Shown piece by piece: positions 2,644 through 45,167 of a stretch of DNA of 45,167 bases. How positions within the stretch are numbered: the first letter of the stretch is position 1; every line of letters begins with the position of its first letter. Below the pieces are notes generated by a model. The model was not told where the DNA came from and made no database searches. It saw nothing but the letters and a program-made list of their open reading frames with translations. The translations under genes were made by a program, and so were the position numbers. The DNA lies in assembly GCA_019745975.1 (NCBI GenBank), contig JAIESQ010000170.1, positions 1 to 45,167 on the forward strand. Reading direction: 5' to 3'. This stretch comes from Pirellulales bacterium (GTDB lineage: Bacteria > Planctomycetota > Planctomycetia > Pirellulales > JAEUIK01).

Positions 2644-3412
2644 ACATTGATCCAATCCTCGGCGCCCTGCGGTCAGGCCGCCGACGAGCACGTTGCTCGC
2701 CAGTTGCCGCCGCCGAAACCAAGCATTGCGACCCAATGCGTGCTACTGCCAACCGCCACGCCACGCGGCGCATAACTTCCGCTGACGCGACTACACGGCT
2801 GGCTTTAGTAACGATCAAATCCGAGGCACCAGAGCAACCGCCTGTCGACCGTACCGCCACGCCCGCGAGGGCCCAGCGTTACCACCGACATTCCGGCCGC
2901 TCCAGCACGTCTTTGCGCTAAGAGCCGTCAAGACCTGCCACTCGCCAGTCGCTGCAAAGCGACGAACAAACAACAGTCTTGCGAATGCCACTTTTCCACG
3001 ACCAAATTGTCAAAGATCAATACGTGCACATTGCACGCGCCTAATCGGCTTGCGGCCGACTCGGCCCCAACGGAGCGAACGAATTCGCAACCGTCAGCCC
3101 TGTCGCCTTGGACAGGGGCCTAGAACTATACGGCACCGCACTCAAAACGGTTCGCAAAGTTCCAGGCCCGCGGCCAAAAATCGACACTCGATAGACACCC
3201 CAGAAACAACGTGCCGAACGGGATCGGCTCCGCTCGGCAAGGCTCGAAGATGCAGTGGGGTTGTCTAGCGAGTCCAGAATCTTATCGTGGCCCGCTGGCA
3301 CCGTCAATCGCCTCTAGTTCGTGTTTAGGAAAGATCTCCGAAAGCTCGTCGCTGGGCGACTTGAGCCCGGGTTCTGGCGACGCTGGTTGATCGGCGCAAT
3401 CGATTTTCGAAG
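2644..3412 (-). other. Internal transcribed spacer, tRNA-Ala to 23S
   Basis: About 770 nt lie between tRNA-Ala and 23S with no convincing coding sequence on either strand. The only motif recognised is the boxA-like element near 3001-3020. The rest should be the precursor region processed away during 23S maturation. Confidence 0.8.
3001..3020 (-). promoter_or_regulatory. boxA-like rRNA antitermination motif
   Basis: The minus strand reads TTGATCTTTGACAATTTGGT. This closely resembles the E. coli boxA region TGCTCTTTAACAATTT, which recruits NusB/NusE for antitermination of rRNA transcription. It lies about 360 nt upstream of the 23S 5' end, inside the spacer, as expected for a 23S leader. TTGACA inside it could by chance be read as a -35 box, but no matching -10 was seen at the right distance. 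Confidence 0.6.
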
Positions 3413-10656: not shown

Positions 10657-10689
10657 GCTGATCAGTTAACCATCTGATAGCAATCGCCT

Positions 10690-10719
10690 GGGTGCCACTG
10701 CTGGCTCGTCCAGCAGTGC
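10690..10719 (+). repeat. GGGTGC-headed palindromic repeat, copy 1
   Basis: The head GGGTGC is followed by a perfect 9-bp hairpin: CACTGCTGG (10696-10704), loop CTCGT, CCAGCAGTG (10710-10718). It lies between the convergent DUF1501 and hydrolase genes. A near-identical 30-mer, differing at two loop positions, is inside the gene at 32237-34231. Confidence 0.85.
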
Positions 10720-10794
10720 GCGGTTCGTAGCCGAAATTCCGGGGGGCAGCCGGCTCACGAAAACACTTGTGCACGAGCATCGAGGCGTCGCACT

Positions 10795-11781: not shown

Positions 11782-12100
11782 CGGCGAATCACCTCCAATA
11801 CGAGGTCTGGGTTGACCAGTGGATTGGCAAGCAGCCGGGCAGCAAACGCGCCGCCTGCGGAAAATTATCATAGTGCCGGGAAAGCACCGCTGCCTGCTAC
11901 CGCCCTGGTTGAGAGCCAAAAGGCGCGACACCGCGTGCGAGCCGAGGGGCTCAGGGCTCAGCACAGGTCAGAGTCGGCGTGAAGAGCGGCGTCCGGCGCG
12001 CGCGCGCTAGATGCCACACACTAACCCGCGGCGCTAGCAAGGGTTCGCCCAAGTGGTCCCTCGCCGGTGCGTTGCACGCACGCTACAAGGTCGTGAACCA
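11782..12100. other. Non-coding interval downstream of the group II intron
   Basis: About 320 nt between the hydrolase start and the intron 3' end. It should hold the hydrolase promoter, but I see no convincing -35/-10 pair. Reading frames here lack protein-like composition. Confidence 0.5.
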
Positions 12101-12782
12101 GTCGAGTAGGAGAGGGGCAGCACGTTGCTGCCGCCTCTCCCCTCCTCAAACCGGACGTGCGGAGCTACCGCATCCGGCTTTCCCGAAGACACTCATTGCT
12201 GGACATGCACGAATGTTGACCGCATCCGCTTGGACCAACAACCAGTGGCGGTCGCGAAAGGACGCGTTGAATTCCGTAGTCGGGTGCAAGACCCAAGCGG
12301 CACGTCCTTCGTTGACTGCCACGACTCTCCGGCAGGGTTCCTTCGCTCGGCCGGCGTTGCCCGGCTTCGTCGCTACTACGAACCCCTCCGACTCCTGCGC
12401 CGGTCCGAGGGCGGTTATGTCTTCCCGCCGCCGGTTGCGCGCGACGGAGCGTCGCGGGCTGCCGTCGCAGGTCTCCCAGGTTCCTGATTGTTCTTTCGAT
12501 GCCCGCTGTCCCCTATCACCCCGGAGAGCCCGACCGCTGCGCGTGCTCGTTGCTTGGCGGTCGGCGTCAGGCTTCACCGAATCCGGGCGGCTGGCCACTC
12601 TCACGCTTGTAACGAGGCCGAATCGGGTTCACGCTTGCGCATTACGGCTGACATCGTCGTCGCTGGCGGGCTTCGCACGGCCGGTCGCCCTGCCGCACGC
12701 CGCTCGACTTCATGGTGAACGAGCAAGTGCCATGATCAGTACCTTTCAACTGACAAGAACAACCAGGCTTTGCCTGGCGCAC
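12101..12782 (-). mobile_element. ORF-less group II intron, apparently complete
   Basis: On the minus strand the element starts GTGCGCC (12782) followed by a CCAGGC/GCCTGG hairpin, as bacterial group II introns do. It ends with a typical domain V and domain VI. Domain V (12148-12180) starts AAGCCGGATGCGG and ends CCGCACGTCCGGTTT, including the CG bulge. Domain VI (12101-12147) has a long GC stem and a bulged A at 12107, seven bases from the 3' end CTCGAC. An upstream segment (about 12300-12500) resembles the leader that normally precedes the intron-encoded reverse transcriptase, translating as ESEGFVVATKPGNAG. No reverse transcriptase gene is present: only about 120 nt separate that leader from domain V. 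At 682 nt the length fits a bare ribozyme. Splicing and mobility would need a maturase supplied in trans. Confidence 0.85.
12226..12300. repeat. Inverted repeat replacing the intron ORF region
   Basis: CCGCTTGG (12226-12233) and CCAAGCGG (12293-12300) are perfect 8-bp inverted arms inside the intron, between the degenerate ORF leader and domain V. They could close a shortened domain IV stem where the reverse transcriptase gene would normally sit. The assignment to domain IV is inference. Confidence 0.5.
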
Positions 12783-26540: not shown

Positions 26541-26806
26541 TACGTAACGTTCGGCACATCCGGCATACGCGTTACACGCTGAGCCCCTAACAACGCTGGA
26601 ACCCGTTAAACCACGGCATGTTAGCGAGCCTGCGCAGCTTGAACGCCTCGCGCGATCAAGTTACCATGATGCTGTTGCCGCTGCACGGTGAATTGTCCGA
26701 GAGCCCCGTGGTTGTTACCCGAATTCGGGTGGACGACAGAGGCGTGCAGTGACGCTTCGTCGCTCATCACTTGCCTAGCGCCCAAAAGTTGTGGAGCGTG
26801 GGATTC

Positions 26807-28246
26807 ATGAAACGGCTTGCTGGCCTGATTGGCATTTTGGCGTTTCTCGGTACGTCGCTTGTCGGGGCGCAGGATGTAGCGCTCGTCGACCTCTATGGCA
26901 ATGCGGTCCACGCATACTTTGCTGGCGATTTCACCGCCTCGTGGAATGATCTGTCGGCTGCAATCGATGCGGGCAGCGAAGATCCGCGTGTGTACTATTT
27001 TCGTGGATTGTGCAGCAGCCGGTTAGGACGTCCGCAGGAGGCCTCCGAGGATTTCGCCCTGGGTGCGAAACTCGAGGCAGCCGACAGCGACCACTTTTAC
27101 AACGTCAGTAAGTCGCTCGAGCGCGTGCAGGGGAGCGTGCGACTGGGATTGGAACGTTACCGTTCTCAAGCCCGCTTGGCGGCCATGCGCGAAGTGCAGC
27201 GATTGAATTACGAGCGGTACGAGCGCATTCGTAAAGCCGAGCCGCGCGTGACCATCCCGGTCGAGCGCGAACCAGCCGGCGATGCCACCGAGCCGAGCGC
27301 GACCCCGGAAGAGCCCGCCGAAGAGGAACCGACCGATCTGCCCGCTCCTGCCGACGAAACGCCGGCTGCCGACGAGCCTGCGGACGAAGCGGAAATGCCG
27401 GCCGAAGAAGAAGCGGCGACATCCGAGGCGGAAGCAACGCCCTCGGAGGATGCCGACCCGTTCGGCTCCGATGGTGATACGCCGGCAGCCGCTGAGGAGC
27501 CGAGTGCGGACGAGCCTGGGGCCGAAATGGAGGAGCCGGCCGCCGAAGAGGCTCCCGCAGCCGATGAGCCAGCCAGCGAACCGGCGGCCGAAGAAGCTCC
27601 CAGCGACGAAACGCCCGCCGACGAAGGCCCCGAACTGAGTACGCCGGCTGAGAAAGCTGGTGATTCGGCAGATTCCGAGCCTGGATCGGCTGACGAAGCC
27701 GATCCGTTTGCCCCAGGCGCTGACGCCTTAGACTCGACCGGAACGCCCGATGCTTCAACCGTCGACGAAACTCCAGCGGAAGAGGCGAACGAGGAGGAAC
27801 TGCCGGGCGAGGATGCGACCGGAACGCCCGATGAATCGAGCGCGGATCGGGCGCCCTCGGACGACGCAGCCACTGACGAGATGCCGGCTGAAGACGAGGC
27901 TCCCGCAGACGCAGCTCCGGCTGATGAATCGCCCGCCGATGAGGCTCCGGCCGACGAGCCGGCGGCCGACGAAGCACCCGCTGACGAGATGCCCGAGGAG
28001 GAAGAAGTTCCGATCGACGAGCCTGCGGCAGATAAACCTGCAGCCGACGAGCCTACAGCAGATGAACCAGACGCCGATGAGCCTGCGGCTGACGAAGAAG
28101 CGCCCACCGATGAACCGGCTGCCGACGAGCCCCCTGCCGACGACGAGGCCGCGACGGACGAGAAACCTGCTGCCGAAGACGAAGCGCCCGCCGACAAGCC
28201 GAAAGAGGAAGAAGACCCGTTCGCGCCAGAGGGGTCGGCGGCGTAG
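26807..28246 (+). CDS. Secreted acidic repeat protein (PADE repeats)
   Basis: This is 479 aa from ATG 26807. A signal peptide covers residues 1-22 (to GAQDV). Residues about 25-95 resemble a TPR hairpin pair (YGNAVHAYFAGDFTASWNDLSAAI, then VYYFRGLCSSRLGRPQEASEDF). Residues 96-150 form a charged helix rich in Arg/Tyr. From about 152 to the end the protein is almost only Ala, Asp, Glu, Pro, Ser and Thr, with irregular repeats such as PADEAPADE and three DPF motifs (ADPFGS, ADPFAPG, and EDPFAPEG at the C-terminus). The tail would be disordered and highly acidic, perhaps calcium-binding or a spacer at the cell surface. The codons of the repeats vary, so the repeat is kept at protein level. A long antisense frame over the tail is an artefact of composition. 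Confidence 0.85.
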   Translation: MKRLAGLIGILAFLGTSLVGAQDVALVDLYGNAVHAYFAGDFTASWNDLSAAIDAGSEDPRVYYFRGLCSSRLGRPQEASEDFALGAKLEAADSDHFYNVSKSLERVQGSVRLGLERYRSQARLAAMREVQRLNYERYERIRKAEPRVTIPVEREPAGDATEPSATPEEPAEEEPTDLPAPADETPAADEPADEAEMPAEEEAATSEAEATPSEDADPFGSDGDTPAAAEEPSADEPGAEMEEPAAEEAPAADEPASEPAAEEAPSDETPADEGPELSTPAEKAGDSADSEPGSADEADPFAPGADALDSTGTPDASTVDETPAEEANEEELPGEDATGTPDESSADRAPSDDAATDEMPAEDEAPADAAPADESPADEAPADEPAADEAPADEMPEEEEVPIDEPAADKPAADEPTADEPDADEPAADEEAPTDEPAADEPPADDEAATDEKPAAEDEAPADKPKEEEDPFAPEGSAA

Positions 28247-32236: not shown

Positions 32237-34231
32237 TTACGGTCCCCGGCTGCCAGCCTGCAGGCGAGCCCTTACTTGATCCAGCGCTTGCCGTGCCTCG
32301 ACATCCGCCGAATTCAGGCGCACGGCCGCGGCGAGGAATGGCTCGGCAGCCGCATCCTGACCGATGTGGGCGAGGATTCGGCCCTTGGCCGACAAGGCTT
32401 GAGGTTCGTTGGGTTTGCGGAGCAACACGTGGTCAACTTGTTGGAGTGCCGCTTGGCTCTTGCCCTGAGCGCCTAGGGCCAGCGCATAAGCACAGCGGGC
32501 GAGGTGAAAATTAGGGTCACAACGCAGCGCTTCTGCGAAACTACGCTCTGCCTCGCCGAGCCGGTCTTGCAGCACGAGTGCATTACCCAGGTTGTAGCGC
32601 GCAATGTGGTCGTTTGGAATCAGGCGCACAACAGCCGCGAATTGATCCTCTGCCTCTGGTAACCTCTGCAGACCGGCGAGGGTCGTGCCGGCGTCGTTAA
32701 AGGCAGTGAAAAAACCCGGATGCAGCTTTTGAGCCTTGAAAAAGTACTCGAGCGCTTTTTCTGCCTGCCCTTGCTGCACGAGCTGCCGGCCCACCTCGTC
32801 CCAGGCAAGCGCGCTTTGCGGGCTGACATCAAGTGCATGGCGAAAGAGCGCTGTTTCATTCCGCCAGAACCGCACTTGGAAGGCGCTCAAAAGGGCCAAC
32901 ACCCCGAGAATCCCGGCAGCGGCCGGAACAGCCCAGCCTGCTTTCTGGTCTGCGAGCCACCAGGCCAGCGCAAAGGCCGGACCCAGCAGGGCGAGATACG
33001 CATAGCGGTCGGCTACCGTTGAGTAGTAGCTCTGGTACACGAACGGGATGAAGCCGAGCACGGGCAGGAGTGCAACCACGAACACTGCCGCCGCCGTCAA
33101 CAGCTTCCACTGCCGCCGCCAGACGAGTACGGCAGCAATCGCGATGGGCAAAGCCGCTGTCAACCAAGTCCAGCCGGCGGCAACTAGCCGATGAACGGGT
33201 CGGCCATAATCGGGGGCCAGATTCCACGGTACGAACAGCTTGTAGAGATAGAACGAAATCGCATCACCGGCCAGCCGCGGTCGATCGATAGGTGGCGCCA
33301 CCTCGGGAACGACATCGCCCGATTGCTGTGTCTTCGTGATCGCTGCCAGGACCAACGCCAATGCAACCATCGGCCCCAGACTCAGTCCGATCGCCCGCCA
33401 ACTCCGTCGCAAGATCGCAAAATCGACAACCAGGAGAACGAGCGGTATCGACACGGCCGAGGGCTTCGAGAGCACCGCCAGAATGAATGTCGCCAGCGCC
33501 GCCATGTACCAGCCTGACACACGCCAGCTTCCCGTGGAATCGTTAGAAGGAGTTTCAAAACGTGGTTTGGGTGCCACTGCTGGCTTGCCCAGCAGTGCAA
33601 AGTTCGACCGGGCACTACTAGGCGAGCTCGCAGTGTCACTCGCCGCCGGTTCAGCGCCGGTTTTGAAATCACCTCTGGTATCCACCCACGATACATAGAG
33701 CCAGATCGTCGAAAGCCCAAAGGTGGCTGACAACAATCCGCGGGTCTCAGTAATCCAGGCGACGCTCTCAACTTGCAACGGATGCACGGCAAACAGCAGC
33801 GCGCCCAGTGCCGCCGGCAGTTCGCGACCGACTAGCCGTCGCAGGAGCACGAACACAAGCAGGGTGTTCGTGATGTGCAGTCCGACGGAGCCGAGGTGAT
33901 AGATCCCCCAAAACGGCTCGGTCGCGGTTCCCAAGTGCAGGGCAAGCCACGTTTCGCCCGCCAAGAACGTGTAAGCCATCGGCACGTAGAGGCCAGCGTA
34001 GGGGGCCTTCCAAAGCTCTGCCAGGCCGTGCCATGAGGGTGGCATCAGATGCGGGTTGCGGGTGATGTTGAGGGGATCGTCCCATTCAAGCAGCCTGAAA
34101 AGCGCGGTCTGCGCGTAAATAGCCGCAGGCACGAGCGCGATGATCACGCACCACAGCCAGAAGTTGCGCGCCGAATACCGCGACGCATTTCCGTTGCCCT
34201 GCCGAGAGCTGGCCTTGCGCTTGCGCGGCAT
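32237..34231 (-). CDS. Multi-TM protein with C-terminal TPRs (TMTC-like)
   Basis: This is 664 aa, from ATG 34231 with a basic N-terminus (MPRKRKASSRQ). About 10 TM segments span residues 25-470. Family-typical points are EWDDPLNITRN (about 49-59, the acidic first-loop motif), HPLQVESVAWITETRGLLSA (about 150-170) and AVLSKPSAVS (about 252-261). The C-terminal 170 residues hold about four TPRs (ALAWDEVGRQLVQQGQAEKA and later). This resembles GT-C-fold O-glycosyltransferases of the TMTC type, which glycosylate proteins from a lipid-linked sugar; activity here is inferred. The loop at about residues 184-236 is far longer than in the paralogue at 36112 and contains a 30-nt palindromic repeat in frame (codons 212-221). 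Start choice avoids a 39-codon upstream extension. Confidence 0.88.
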   Translation of the reverse strand: MPRKRKASSRQGNGNASRYSARNFWLWCVIIALVPAAIYAQTALFRLLEWDDPLNITRNPHLMPPSWHGLAELWKAPYAGLYVPMAYTFLAGETWLALHLGTATEPFWGIYHLGSVGLHITNTLLVFVLLRRLVGRELPAALGALLFAVHPLQVESVAWITETRGLLSATFGLSTIWLYVSWVDTRGDFKTGAEPAASDTASSPSSARSNFALLGKPAVAPKPRFETPSNDSTGSWRVSGWYMAALATFILAVLSKPSAVSIPLVLLVVDFAILRRSWRAIGLSLGPMVALALVLAAITKTQQSGDVVPEVAPPIDRPRLAGDAISFYLYKLFVPWNLAPDYGRPVHRLVAAGWTWLTAALPIAIAAVLVWRRQWKLLTAAAVFVVALLPVLGFIPFVYQSYYSTVADRYAYLALLGPAFALAWWLADQKAGWAVPAAAGILGVLALLSAFQVRFWRNETALFRHALDVSPQSALAWDEVGRQLVQQGQAEKALEYFFKAQKLHPGFFTAFNDAGTTLAGLQRLPEAEDQFAAVVRLIPNDHIARYNLGNALVLQDRLGEAERSFAEALRCDPNFHLARCAYALALGAQGKSQAALQQVDHVLLRKPNEPQALSAKGRILAHIGQDAAAEPFLAAAVRLNSADVEARQALDQVRARLQAGSRGP
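33569..33598 (+). repeat. GGGTGC-headed palindromic repeat, copy 2, inside a CDS
   Basis: This is the same 30-mer as at 10690-10719 apart from two loop bases: GGGTGC, then CACTGCTGG (33575-33583), loop CTTGC, CCAGCAGTG (33589-33597). It is read in the minus-strand gene 32237-34231 as exactly ten codons, ALLGKPAVAP (residues 212-221), in the variable loop between two membrane segments. Confidence 0.85.
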
Positions 34232-34306
34232 TCGAAACGACCTCGACTTGCGCTCCACGCGTGATTCTTGGCCTGAACTCTGTTTCGTGCGAACGCGTAA
34301 CGCGCG

Positions 34307-34345
34307 AAAAAAAAGAGGCCGGCTCCACTTTGGAACCGGCCTCTT
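34307..34345 (-). terminator. Rho-independent terminator of the PEP-CTERM gene
   Basis: On the minus strand GAGGCCGGTTCC (34343-34332), a five-base loop, GGAGCCGGCCTC (34326-34315) and then eight T residues (34314-34307). The stem has 12 bp with one G-T mispair/wobble. It lies 30 nt after the stop of the PEP-CTERM gene and before the start of the TPR gene, so the two minus-strand genes are probably separate transcripts. Confidence 0.93.
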
Positions 34346-34376
34346 CAAAGCTAAGCAATCAGAGACAAGAAGGAAG

Positions 34377-36111: not shown

Positions 36112-38310
36112 GTGACGCGGACTCGTTTGAAGTGGTTGCTAGCCACAGGTTTGATGGTCGTGACGGTCGGTCTCTTCGGCCGCATGGTCTGGGACAAGCA
36201 CGACTTCGTCAATTACGACGATCACCTTTATGTCACGCGCAATGACGATGTCCAGCAGGGTTTGAGCTTCTGGGGCGTCCTCAGAAGCTTCGACCTGCGT
36301 TCGACGGTTGCCGCCAATTGGCACCCCTTGACCATGATCACCCACATGGCCGACTGCAGCATGTGGGGCGTGAAGCCCTGGGGGCATCATTTCAACAATT
36401 TGGTGCTGCACACGTTCAACGTCGTGCTGCTGTTTCTGGTCTTTGCCCGCATGACCGGTCAAATCTGGCCGAGCGCCTTGTTGGCCGCGCTCTTCAGTTG
36501 GCATCCCTTGCATGTCGAGTCGGTGGCCTGGGCTTCCGAACGCAAGGATGTGCTGAGCGCCCTGTTCTGGCTGTTGACGATGTGGGCCTACACGCGCTAC
36601 GTCGAGCGACCAAGCCTGGCGAAGTACGCGAGCATGGCCCTGTTGCTGGTGCTCGGATTGTTGAGCAAGCCCATGGTCGTCACGTTGCCCTGCGTGCTGT
36701 TGCTGCTCGATCTGTGGCCCTTGAATCGACTCGGCGGCGCCAACCTGTTCACCGTCGAGGGCTTCGGCAAAGCGGCCCAGCGGCTGCCACTGTTGCTCTT
36801 GGAAAAACTCCCCCTGTTTGCGTTGGTGGCAATGGCATCGGTCATCACGTTCATCGCGCAGCGCAGTCAGTCGGCGGTCGCGCCGCTGGAAGCCATCCCC
36901 ATCTCGGTTCGACTTGTCAATTCACTGATGTCGTATAGCGCGTACGTTTCCAGCACGCTGTGGCCAGTCGATCTGGCAATTCCCTATCCGTTGGACACTC
37001 GCGAGTTGACGGTTCTGCAGGCGGCCCTGGCATTCGTCGGCGCGTGCTTGATCACGCTCGTGACGGCGATGCTCTTTCGTTGGGCGCCGTACCTGCTTGT
37101 CGGCTGGCTGTGGTATCTGGGCACACTGGTGCCGGTAATCGGCTTCGTCCAGGTCGGCAGCCAGTACATGGCGGATCGATACACGTACATTCCGTTGATC
37201 GGGGTTTTTGCGGCCCTGGCATTCGGTCTGGCAGACTTGCTTGATTCATCGAAGCGTGTTCCGGCCTGGGCCTTCGTGCCGATCTGGCTGTTGGCGACGG
37301 CATTGCCAGCAATGGCGGTGTTGACCGAATACGGGCGACGCGCCGGAGAGCCTGTGCCCGTGACGTGGCTATTGGCAACGCTCGGCGGCCTGTTCTTGCT
37401 GGCGCTGCTGTTTGGGCTGCTGGCTTCGCGAGTTCGGACCGCGGGCATTTGGGGAGCTGGGGCCGGTGCCGGTTTCGTCCTGGCTTCGCTTGGAGTGCTC
37501 ACCTACTGGCAAGTGGGCTACTGGAAGGACACGTTGCACCTTTTCGGTCACACGGTTCTCGTTACGCCGCGGAATCACGGTGCCTATTTTGGACTGGGGA
37601 CCGCCTACTGGCAGGAGGGTAACCTTGATAAAGCACTCGAGATGTTTGAAACGTCGCTGAAGATCGGCCCGAACCTTTCCATGGGGCGATACAACCGCGC
37701 CCTCGCGCTGGGTGCCGCCAAGGAGTACGAGCGGGCCATCCGCGAGTTTGAAATCGCCATGCGCTGCGGCACGCCGGAACGCAGTGGGCGACTAGAGATC
37801 GGCCGGACTTATCTGTTCATGCGCCGTTGGGAGGACGCCAAGCGGCAATTCACCCGCGTGCTCGAGATCGATCCCGACGATCATAGCGCGCATTCCAATT
37901 TGGGTATCGCACTCATGCAGCTAGGTCAAACCGATGCGGCCGTCGCGCAGTACCAACAGGCTGTCGCTGGCGATCGGGCCGACCCCCGCGCGGCAGTGCT
38001 ACTGAGCCGCGTCTACGCAACTCACCCCAACCCCAAGTACCGCGATCCCGACAAAGCGTTGGCGCTGGCCAAAAATTCCTGCCGCCTGACGCAGATGCGA
38101 AACGCCCTGGCACTCGACACCCTGGCGGCAGCCTACGCAGCAAAGAAGGACTATGAACAGGCCCGCCATTTTGCCATGAAAGCCAAGCAGCGGGCTTATT
38201 TCGACAAAGAAGACGACTTCGCACTGGAGATCGAGAAGCGTTACCGGCTGTACTCCGCCAATCGCCCTTATATTGAAGACCCGCTGAACTTCGATCCCTT
38301 GCGAACCTGA
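36112..38310 (+). CDS. Multi-TM protein with C-terminal TPRs (TMTC-like), paralogue
   Basis: This is 732 aa from GTG 36112, placed by the TM segment KWLLATGLMVVTVGLF right after the start; the RBS is weak. About 11 TM segments span residues 5-465. Early motifs match the paralogue at 32237: FVNYDDHLYVTRND, NWHPLTMITHMADC, HPLHVESVAWASERKDVLSA and GLLSKPMVV. The C-terminal 260 residues carry TPRs (HGAYFGLGTAYWQEGNLDKALEMF, SAHSNLGIALMQLGQTDAAV and others). The architecture is that of TMTC-like putative GT-C O-glycosyltransferases; the donor and acceptor are unknown. It lacks the long hydrophilic insert of the paralogue. It is divergent from the PEP-CTERM gene across an 835-nt gap. Confidence 0.9.
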   Translation: MTRTRLKWLLATGLMVVTVGLFGRMVWDKHDFVNYDDHLYVTRNDDVQQGLSFWGVLRSFDLRSTVAANWHPLTMITHMADCSMWGVKPWGHHFNNLVLHTFNVVLLFLVFARMTGQIWPSALLAALFSWHPLHVESVAWASERKDVLSALFWLLTMWAYTRYVERPSLAKYASMALLLVLGLLSKPMVVTLPCVLLLLDLWPLNRLGGANLFTVEGFGKAAQRLPLLLLEKLPLFALVAMASVITFIAQRSQSAVAPLEAIPISVRLVNSLMSYSAYVSSTLWPVDLAIPYPLDTRELTVLQAALAFVGACLITLVTAMLFRWAPYLLVGWLWYLGTLVPVIGFVQVGSQYMADRYTYIPLIGVFAALAFGLADLLDSSKRVPAWAFVPIWLLATALPAMAVLTEYGRRAGEPVPVTWLLATLGGLFLLALLFGLLASRVRTAGIWGAGAGAGFVLASLGVLTYWQVGYWKDTLHLFGHTVLVTPRNHGAYFGLGTAYWQEGNLDKALEMFETSLKIGPNLSMGRYNRALALGAAKEYERAIREFEIAMRCGTPERSGRLEIGRTYLFMRRWEDAKRQFTRVLEIDPDDHSAHSNLGIALMQLGQTDAAVAQYQQAVAGDRADPRAAVLLSRVYATHPNPKYRDPDKALALAKNSCRLTQMRNALALDTLAAAYAAKKDYEQARHFAMKAKQRAYFDKEDDFALEIEKRYRLYSANRPYIEDPLNFDPLRT

Positions 38311-44844: not shown

Positions 44845-45103
44845 GTGGAATTGACTCCCGGTGTTTTGCCGAACGGGTGTGGCGAGCGCGGCGCGAGACA
44901 ACCTCCGCTGCCGCGCATCTTAGCAAATTGGCCACATGGTTCGAGACTCCTGGCGCGCAAATCGCACCGGAGTCTAGGCATGCGAACCAATCCAAACGCT
45001 CGCTCTTGTTCCGTATTGGGGAACTTTTCCCCGCTGGGACGCGTCGAACGAGTTACATTTGTGGCGGCGGCCTGCGCGCCGGACGCTTGGACCACGGATG
45101 GCA

Positions 45104-45167
45104 GTCGAGTAGGAGAGGGGCAGCACGTTGCTGCCGCCTCTCCCCTCCTCAAACCGGACGTGCGGAG
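45104..45167 (-). mobile_element. 3' end of a second group II intron copy, cut by window edge
   Basis: These 64 nt are identical to 12101-12164. They contain the whole domain VI (45104-45150), including the bulged branch-point A at 45110, and the 3' half of domain V. The identity extends two more bases into the 3' exon (both start TG) and then stops. The intron body lies beyond the right edge, so whether this copy has a reverse transcriptase gene is unknown. Confidence 0.85.

Follow-up and report, generated by a model that had tools for sequence, protein, structure and literature searches.

Palindromic repeats inside bacterial genes have been reported in several forms. In the available parts of the literature, in-frame palindromic elements (RPE), intragenic REPs, TAG stops supplied by REP ends and a few MITE-built signal peptides are already described (PMC2229807, PMC2759123, PMC10969869, PMC3733652). 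The Rickettsia palindromic elements, known from the work of Ogata in 2000 and 2002 (via PMC2229807 and PMC10969869), are palindromes of ~100-150 bp with terminal inverted repeats, which the portions of these papers that could be consulted place in frame in unrelated conserved genes as well as between genes. REPs and REPINs, treated together with RAYT transposases, are high-copy hairpins, two of them in inverted order (PMC3116915, PMC8049555, available in part). Intragenic REPs of the GTAG/CGTC type lie in frame in genes of several species, with ends giving TAG stops and an excess at N-termini (PMC3733652). Section 15 of that survey treats many N-terminal cases as possibly lying outside genes and makes no mention of signal peptides. 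The enterobacterial repeats RU-1/RU-2 (YPAL), for example in YPO1552, are described at a few separate loci in the available portions of PMC2759123 and PMC2229807.

The element considered here was found in a window of 45,167 nucleotides, the whole stretch of DNA that was analysed, from a Pirellulales bacterium. It is probably a REPIN-derived, MITE-like element that spread in this planctomycete. By its behaviour, it can be likened to the Rickettsia elements: it lies in frame in unrelated conserved genes and is absent from their relatives. Unlike RPE, it belongs to another phylum, contains two REP hairpins, is enriched in signal peptides, adds a net 132 nt and has four open frames. With REPINs it shares two inverted REP hairpins, high copy number and a REP-flanked, RAYT-type Y1 transposase gene in the same genome. 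Unlike them, it carries terminal inverted repeats of 17-20 nt outside the hairpins and shows by eye no GTAG/CGTC tag; the hairpin foot reads TGG-GTGCC in copies and consensus, which places it outside the GTAG/CGTC superfamilies. As in MITEs, the unit is short (134 nt), ends in inverted repeats (CTAGAAGCAGTTTCAAAACC / GGTTTTGAAACTGCTTCTAG) and holds no transposase gene. In contrast to RU-1/RU-2, it occurs in ~20 genes of one genome at a common insertion position. The features of the window are collected in Table 1.

Table 1. Coordinates of the host gene, the composite element and related features in the window.
Feature	Positions	Strand	Remarks
Host gene	32237..34231	-	C-terminal TPR repeats (Pfam), many membrane spans by eye; 664 aa from the ATG used; element at residues 184-229
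Paralogue named in the sequence-only reading	36112..38310	+	loop short at the equivalent place, by eye from the translations
Full-length 134-nt composite element	33545..33678	-	in coding sequence, phase p2, ~44 codons; model 3-133, 115 bits, no length change
Hairpin A (the flagged 30-nt palindrome; REP core 33571-33598)	33569..33598	+	
Hairpin B, degenerate inverted copy of the REP core	33612..33639	-	5 substitutions against the search pattern
Terminal inverted repeat, one end, AGAAGGAGTTTCAAAAC	33545..33561	+	read against the consensus
Terminal inverted repeat, other end, GTTTTGAAATCACCTCT, diverged from GTTTTGAAACTGCTTCT	33660..33676	+	read against the consensus
Solo REP hairpin	10690..10719	+	intergenic; element model matched only in part (model 17-91, 35 bits)

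The sequence-only reading had flagged a 30-nt palindrome translated as ten codons inside a membrane-protein gene. The minus strand of 33569-33598 does encode ALLGKPAVAP, inside the open reading frame 32237-34348. The palindrome is real, but instead of standing alone as an insertion it forms hairpin A of the 134-nt element. When the hairpins of the genomic copies are set side by side, many of them prove to be part of a longer unit, made of two inverted REP hairpins (one degenerate in the window copy) between terminal inverted repeats, in the order CTAGAAGCAGTTTCAAAACC, hairpin B, spacer, hairpin A, GGTTTTGAAACTGCTTCTAG. The near-identity claimed with the copy at 10690 holds for a 39-nt stretch that is 87% identical to 10689-10727, but at 10690 there is only a solo hairpin. 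A terminator or isolated-hairpin reading was set aside, the folding of three 56-nt stretches being unexceptional (z -1.0, -0.7 and -1.3). The 28-nt core has two matches in the window against none expected from window shuffles; across the 6.98 Mb genome, it gives 175 + 169 matches with at most three mismatches, and the reversed pattern gives none.

A 134-position profile built from 102 seed copies was used to scan 100 stretches and the window, together 637,261 bases or ~9% of the genome, each stretch having been chosen for holding a hairpin. This yielded 135 non-redundant matches, 99 of them full length; before removal of duplicates, 78 of 100 full matches measured exactly 134 nt. The 99-copy sample favours well-kept copies and under-represents older ones, because it goes back to the best 100 of 344, the best 100 of 159 and 40 scored candidates. 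The window copy, at full length and without indels, is among the more diverged. Since the element begins and ends with CT, the alignment points to a net insertion of 132 nt, or 44 codons. Four of the six consensus frames contain no stop. With these open frames and a net length divisible by three, a copy that lands in a gene often stays in frame.

Across the order, the REP core is present in 56 of 117 genomes, the own genome included. A DNA search of seven family genomes with the element consensus returned full-length matches in the own genome only and partial ones in G001 and G003. The exact arm-B pattern occurs in five stretches of two planctomycete MAGs, with no match spanning both element ends. 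A REP lies inside a gene at one of 40 loci from five other genomes, a weak figure given that the coding scores were trained on the genome of the window. Within the genome, Y1_Tnp has 15 matches, 14 of them above the cut-off; three of the 15 loci (L183, L185 and L187) have inverted REPs on both sides, and three more have one REP nearby. These REP-flanked genes make a Y1 transposase a candidate for the mover of the 134-nt form. The flank profiles contain no clear target-site duplication, and by eye the two ends of a copy often have unlike outermost bases. The 637 kb scanned (~9% of the genome) yielded one unattached end motif and no autonomous partner sharing these ends.

Some further repeats were observed in passing. 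One locus (L009 1501-1715, contig C65 of the own genome, G000) holds three REPs 93 nt apart with identical surroundings, running to the contig end, and a second repeat, TGTAGGGTGCGTGCAACGCACC, lies between them. In the window, an exact 66-nt direct repeat occupies 12099-12164 and 45102-45167, the second of which closes the window; the stretch CCGGACGTGCGG may resemble the surroundings of group II introns. The open reading frame 26771-28246 contains a long degenerate repeat array (families D1 and D2), rich by eye in Ala, Glu, Asp and Pro.

The feature in the window gene is probably one copy of this REPIN-derived, MITE-like element, spread in the genome and kept in frame. The comparison rests on homologues of ~30-37% identity: searches for a strict orthologue came back empty both at E <= 1e-90 in the 117 order genomes, the own one aside (at most nine candidates scored in each), and at 1e-100 in the other six family genomes. 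The own genus is represented by one genome, so that empty alleles within the species are not visible. Relatives match the window gene in two separate stretches, interrupted at the element. Measured by hand in 13 match pairs (12 in relatives and one in the own genome), the loop of the window protein is 30-52 residues longer. A multiple alignment of 14 homologous ORFs from four related genera (G003-G006), with the L204 row left out as the same ORF as L208, places 1-29 residues in the 45 element columns. The homologues lack the segment, and the inserted unit is therefore the whole element.

A spreading repeat did thus enter the gene in frame and in a permissive loop, as had been proposed. Both split matches and alignment show a loop that exceeds that of relatives by tens of residues; it is also longer than in the paralogue at 36112, as judged by eye from the two translations. 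The proposal that a precise 30-nt insertion accounts for the difference does not survive, since the excess over relatives is larger and the inserted unit is the 134-nt element with its net 132 nt. The alignment recommended in the sequence-only reading, made here with homologues, gave the 1-29 residues reported above. The outcome that would have pointed to an ancestral peptide, the same residues in relatives with other codons, was not seen; by eye, the residues of the 14 homologues are unlike the element. A paralogue of the window gene in the same genome (L088) has an element copy of its own at a different place.

Other genes carry the unit in frame as well. Judged by codon score on both flanks, 18 of the 99 full copies are gene-interior, and 16 are free of stops, 14 in phase p2 and two in m1. 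Of the two interior copies with stops, L092 lies on the opposite strand of a signal-peptide gene. The other, L167, was considered as a broken gene and rejected: the element there sits between convergent genes that both end at it (2965-3100), apparently via the TAG of its CTAG termini. The hosts include mnmE, purQ, an ATP-grasp protein and an MFS transporter, as well as miaA, which fell below the codon-score threshold and was added through homology; planctomycete cytochrome C domains occur in two host proteins. PDB matches are interrupted from 242 to 348 in MnmE (element 241-286, the unmatched part reaching past it), from 171 to 249 in PurQ (element 194-239) and from 289 to 362 in MiaA (element about 305-349). 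NCBIfam matches to the same three proteins are likewise split into two stretches. The MnmE element is without counterpart in all five genomes that match, with 0-9 residues in the element columns, and the sixth family genome gave no MnmE match; the mnmE query for PDB, relatives and NCBIfam began at an internal ATG and missed the N-terminal part. The notion that gene invasion is special to the 134-nt form found no support, as the interior rate of full elements (16/99) is not above that of the other REP hairpins of the genome (7/37, where four of the seven are two pairs 41 nt apart). One locus (L132 57-6002, contig C193 of G000) holds an ORF of 1982 residues with two elements, in m1 at about residue 662 and in p2 at about residue 1464; this ORF has no Pfam match.

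The second setting of the element is the signal peptide. Read outward, each terminal repeat spells TTG AAA CTG CTT CTN, or (M)KLLL. Among 198 element ends, the downstream ORF, counted at 100 codons or more with a coding score above 0.08, follows this outward frame in 44 cases, the next frame in five and the third in 33. In 24 of the 44, chosen by eye, the flank goes on to form a hydrophobic core and has a cleavage-like site. Within the 25 codons upstream, 20 of these 24 have an in-frame ATG, as opposed to 94 of 570 other strand and frame combinations. By a crude, home-made rule (not SignalP) applied to flanks joined across the element by script, 22 of 99 elements were assigned to a predicted signal peptide, versus 173 of 6000 random positions in the same regions (p = 9e-14); L088, among the 22, is probably an interior transmembrane helix. 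The insertion lies within four residues of the start of the hydrophobic window in 17/22 copies against 162/490 control positions (p = 4e-5), the controls being those inside a predicted signal peptide among 20,000 positions drawn. Phases p0 and m1 account for 18 of the 22, and signal-peptide copies mostly end in ...VLKLLL at the hydrophobic core. The signal peptide of a prolyl oligopeptidase is split by the element; that of its relatives, at 72% identity in G004 and 65% in G001, is by eye unbroken. Near 3125 in L086, a repeat-end-like stretch, TTGAAACTGCTTCG, lies in the signal peptide of a secreted-protein gene just downstream of an element; it may be a remnant or a coincidence.

The two settings differ in phase. 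In a table compiled by hand, signal-peptide copies (the 24 hand-picked ones with L139, L116, L125 and L157) number 24 in p0/m1 and four in p2/m0, whereas the 16 stop-free interior copies number two and 14 (p = 2e-6). The p2 consensus consists of 66% Ser, Ala, Gly, Thr and Pro without Cys or Trp, and p0 contains four Cys/Trp; gene-interior copies accordingly encode mostly a Ser/Ala-rich linker. All 24 hand-picked signal-peptide copies keep an open frame across the element, compared with 27/54 (p0) and 30/54 (m1) of the remaining copies, and this openness fits read-through from the old ATG. The interior figure of 17/17 open against 32/54 remaining in p2 is a circular comparison, the 17 (16 stop-free copies and miaA) having been stop-free beforehand, which also makes the count of 45/45 intact partly circular. 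Codon-position bias does not differ between genic and other copies (p = 0.73, 0.97 and 0.75; 14 interior p2 copies of length 134, and 16 + 7 of the 24 signal-peptide copies). Selection on the peptide therefore finds no support, and the inserted peptide looks like a tolerated passenger because its codons lack a third-position bias. The earlier expression "new protein sequence" is literally right, but the 14 gene-interior p2 copies tested bear no codon-position bias. Coding-like sequence running into an element end was scored in 38 cases: it passes through in 18, stops inside the element in six and ends no more than 6 nt from the edge in 14, with TAG as the stop in 12 of the 14. A stop role of the ends is a lead only, because some run-ins are probably antisense shadows of real genes.

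The N-terminal copies permit other readings. A tentative one is that the terminal repeat is a portable translation start, at which TTG-AAA-CTG-CTT-CTN (MKLLL) begins a new signal peptide and the old ATG goes unused. An outward LKLLL-like start joined to a hydrophobic core in the 24 hand-picked genes agrees with this, as do the four of 24 without an in-frame ATG within 25 codons upstream and the L121 copy, which has ATG in place of TTG. However, TTG is no better kept at signal-peptide ends (19/24) than at other ends (145/174); it is equally kept elsewhere, and therefore nothing points to it as a start in use. Three of the 24 have TGG, TGG or TCG at this position and one has CTG, and the openness of all 24 through the element would be unneeded if translation restarted. 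Conservation of TTG as a start is thus unsupported. Stated more broadly, a portable signal-peptide starter that brings a fresh start codon together with a lysine and a run of leucines to the front of the hydrophobic core is a somewhat doubtful proposition; if true, one mobile repeat would repeatedly rebuild the export signals it breaks itself, other phases would give a stop or a linker, and insertion would be tolerated in any reading phase. It is rather unlikely that target-site preference alone, with CT-type sites in Leu-rich signal peptides and p0/m1 arising from CTN codons, accounts for the pattern without peptide selection. The outermost bases of the left end are C in 74/99 and T in 64/99, and the flanks have a weak TSR/YSA preference, but this leaves unexplained the shortage deeper in the signal peptide (2/22 insertions more than four residues past the window start versus 147/490 controls) and the excess of p2 inside genes.

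That N-terminal copies lie in 5' untranslated DNA, with the true starts downstream of the element, is likely for some of them, such as L086 and L112, which have an ATG after the element, and the same caution on REPs at ORF N-termini is voiced in the available part of the 2013 survey (PMC3733652). As a general account it is improbable: the 22 rule-based copies insert before the predicted signal-peptide end once the flanks are joined, and for 20 of them a start at any ATG, GTG or TTG in the following 60 codons would yield no predicted signal peptide. An ancestral peptide, from which the genomic repeats would derive, is scarcely credible. No evidence in its favour was found; there are 344 genomic core matches, the host genes are unrelated to one another, and the segment is missing from the relatives compared for the window gene and MnmE, so that the alignment already contradicts it.

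The preferred reading remains a mobile REPIN-derived element kept in frame. Copying may have been carried out in trans by a REP-type Y1 transposase, as suggested by the Y1 genes flanked by REP hairpins. The element is absent from the relatives of the genes compared, keeps the frame, has open phases and is enriched at the start of predicted signal-peptide cores; selection would have removed harmful insertions and left three kinds of copies. Loop copies, mostly in phase p2, would add a hydrophilic linker rich in Ser, Ala, Gly, Thr and Pro, as in the window gene. Signal-peptide copies, mostly in p0 or m1, would place ...VLKLLL at the hydrophobic core, and the extra residues would leave with the signal peptide. 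Perhaps a third kind lies at gene 3' ends, where the terminal CTAG would give a TAG stop.

In the literature covered, which mostly excluded subscription papers, no account was found of insertions recurring at the front of signal-peptide hydrophobic cores; in the available parts of these sources, precedents for a signal-peptide bias are found at isolated loci only. Annotation should expect family models to match element-bearing proteins in two stretches. The element provides a natural case, beyond Rickettsia and the surveyed intragenic REPs, of a palindromic element in frame in unrelated protein genes, and it allows many insertions of one element to be compared within one genome. Signal peptides may act as safe landing sites because their residues leave the mature protein, a suggestion that can be tested.
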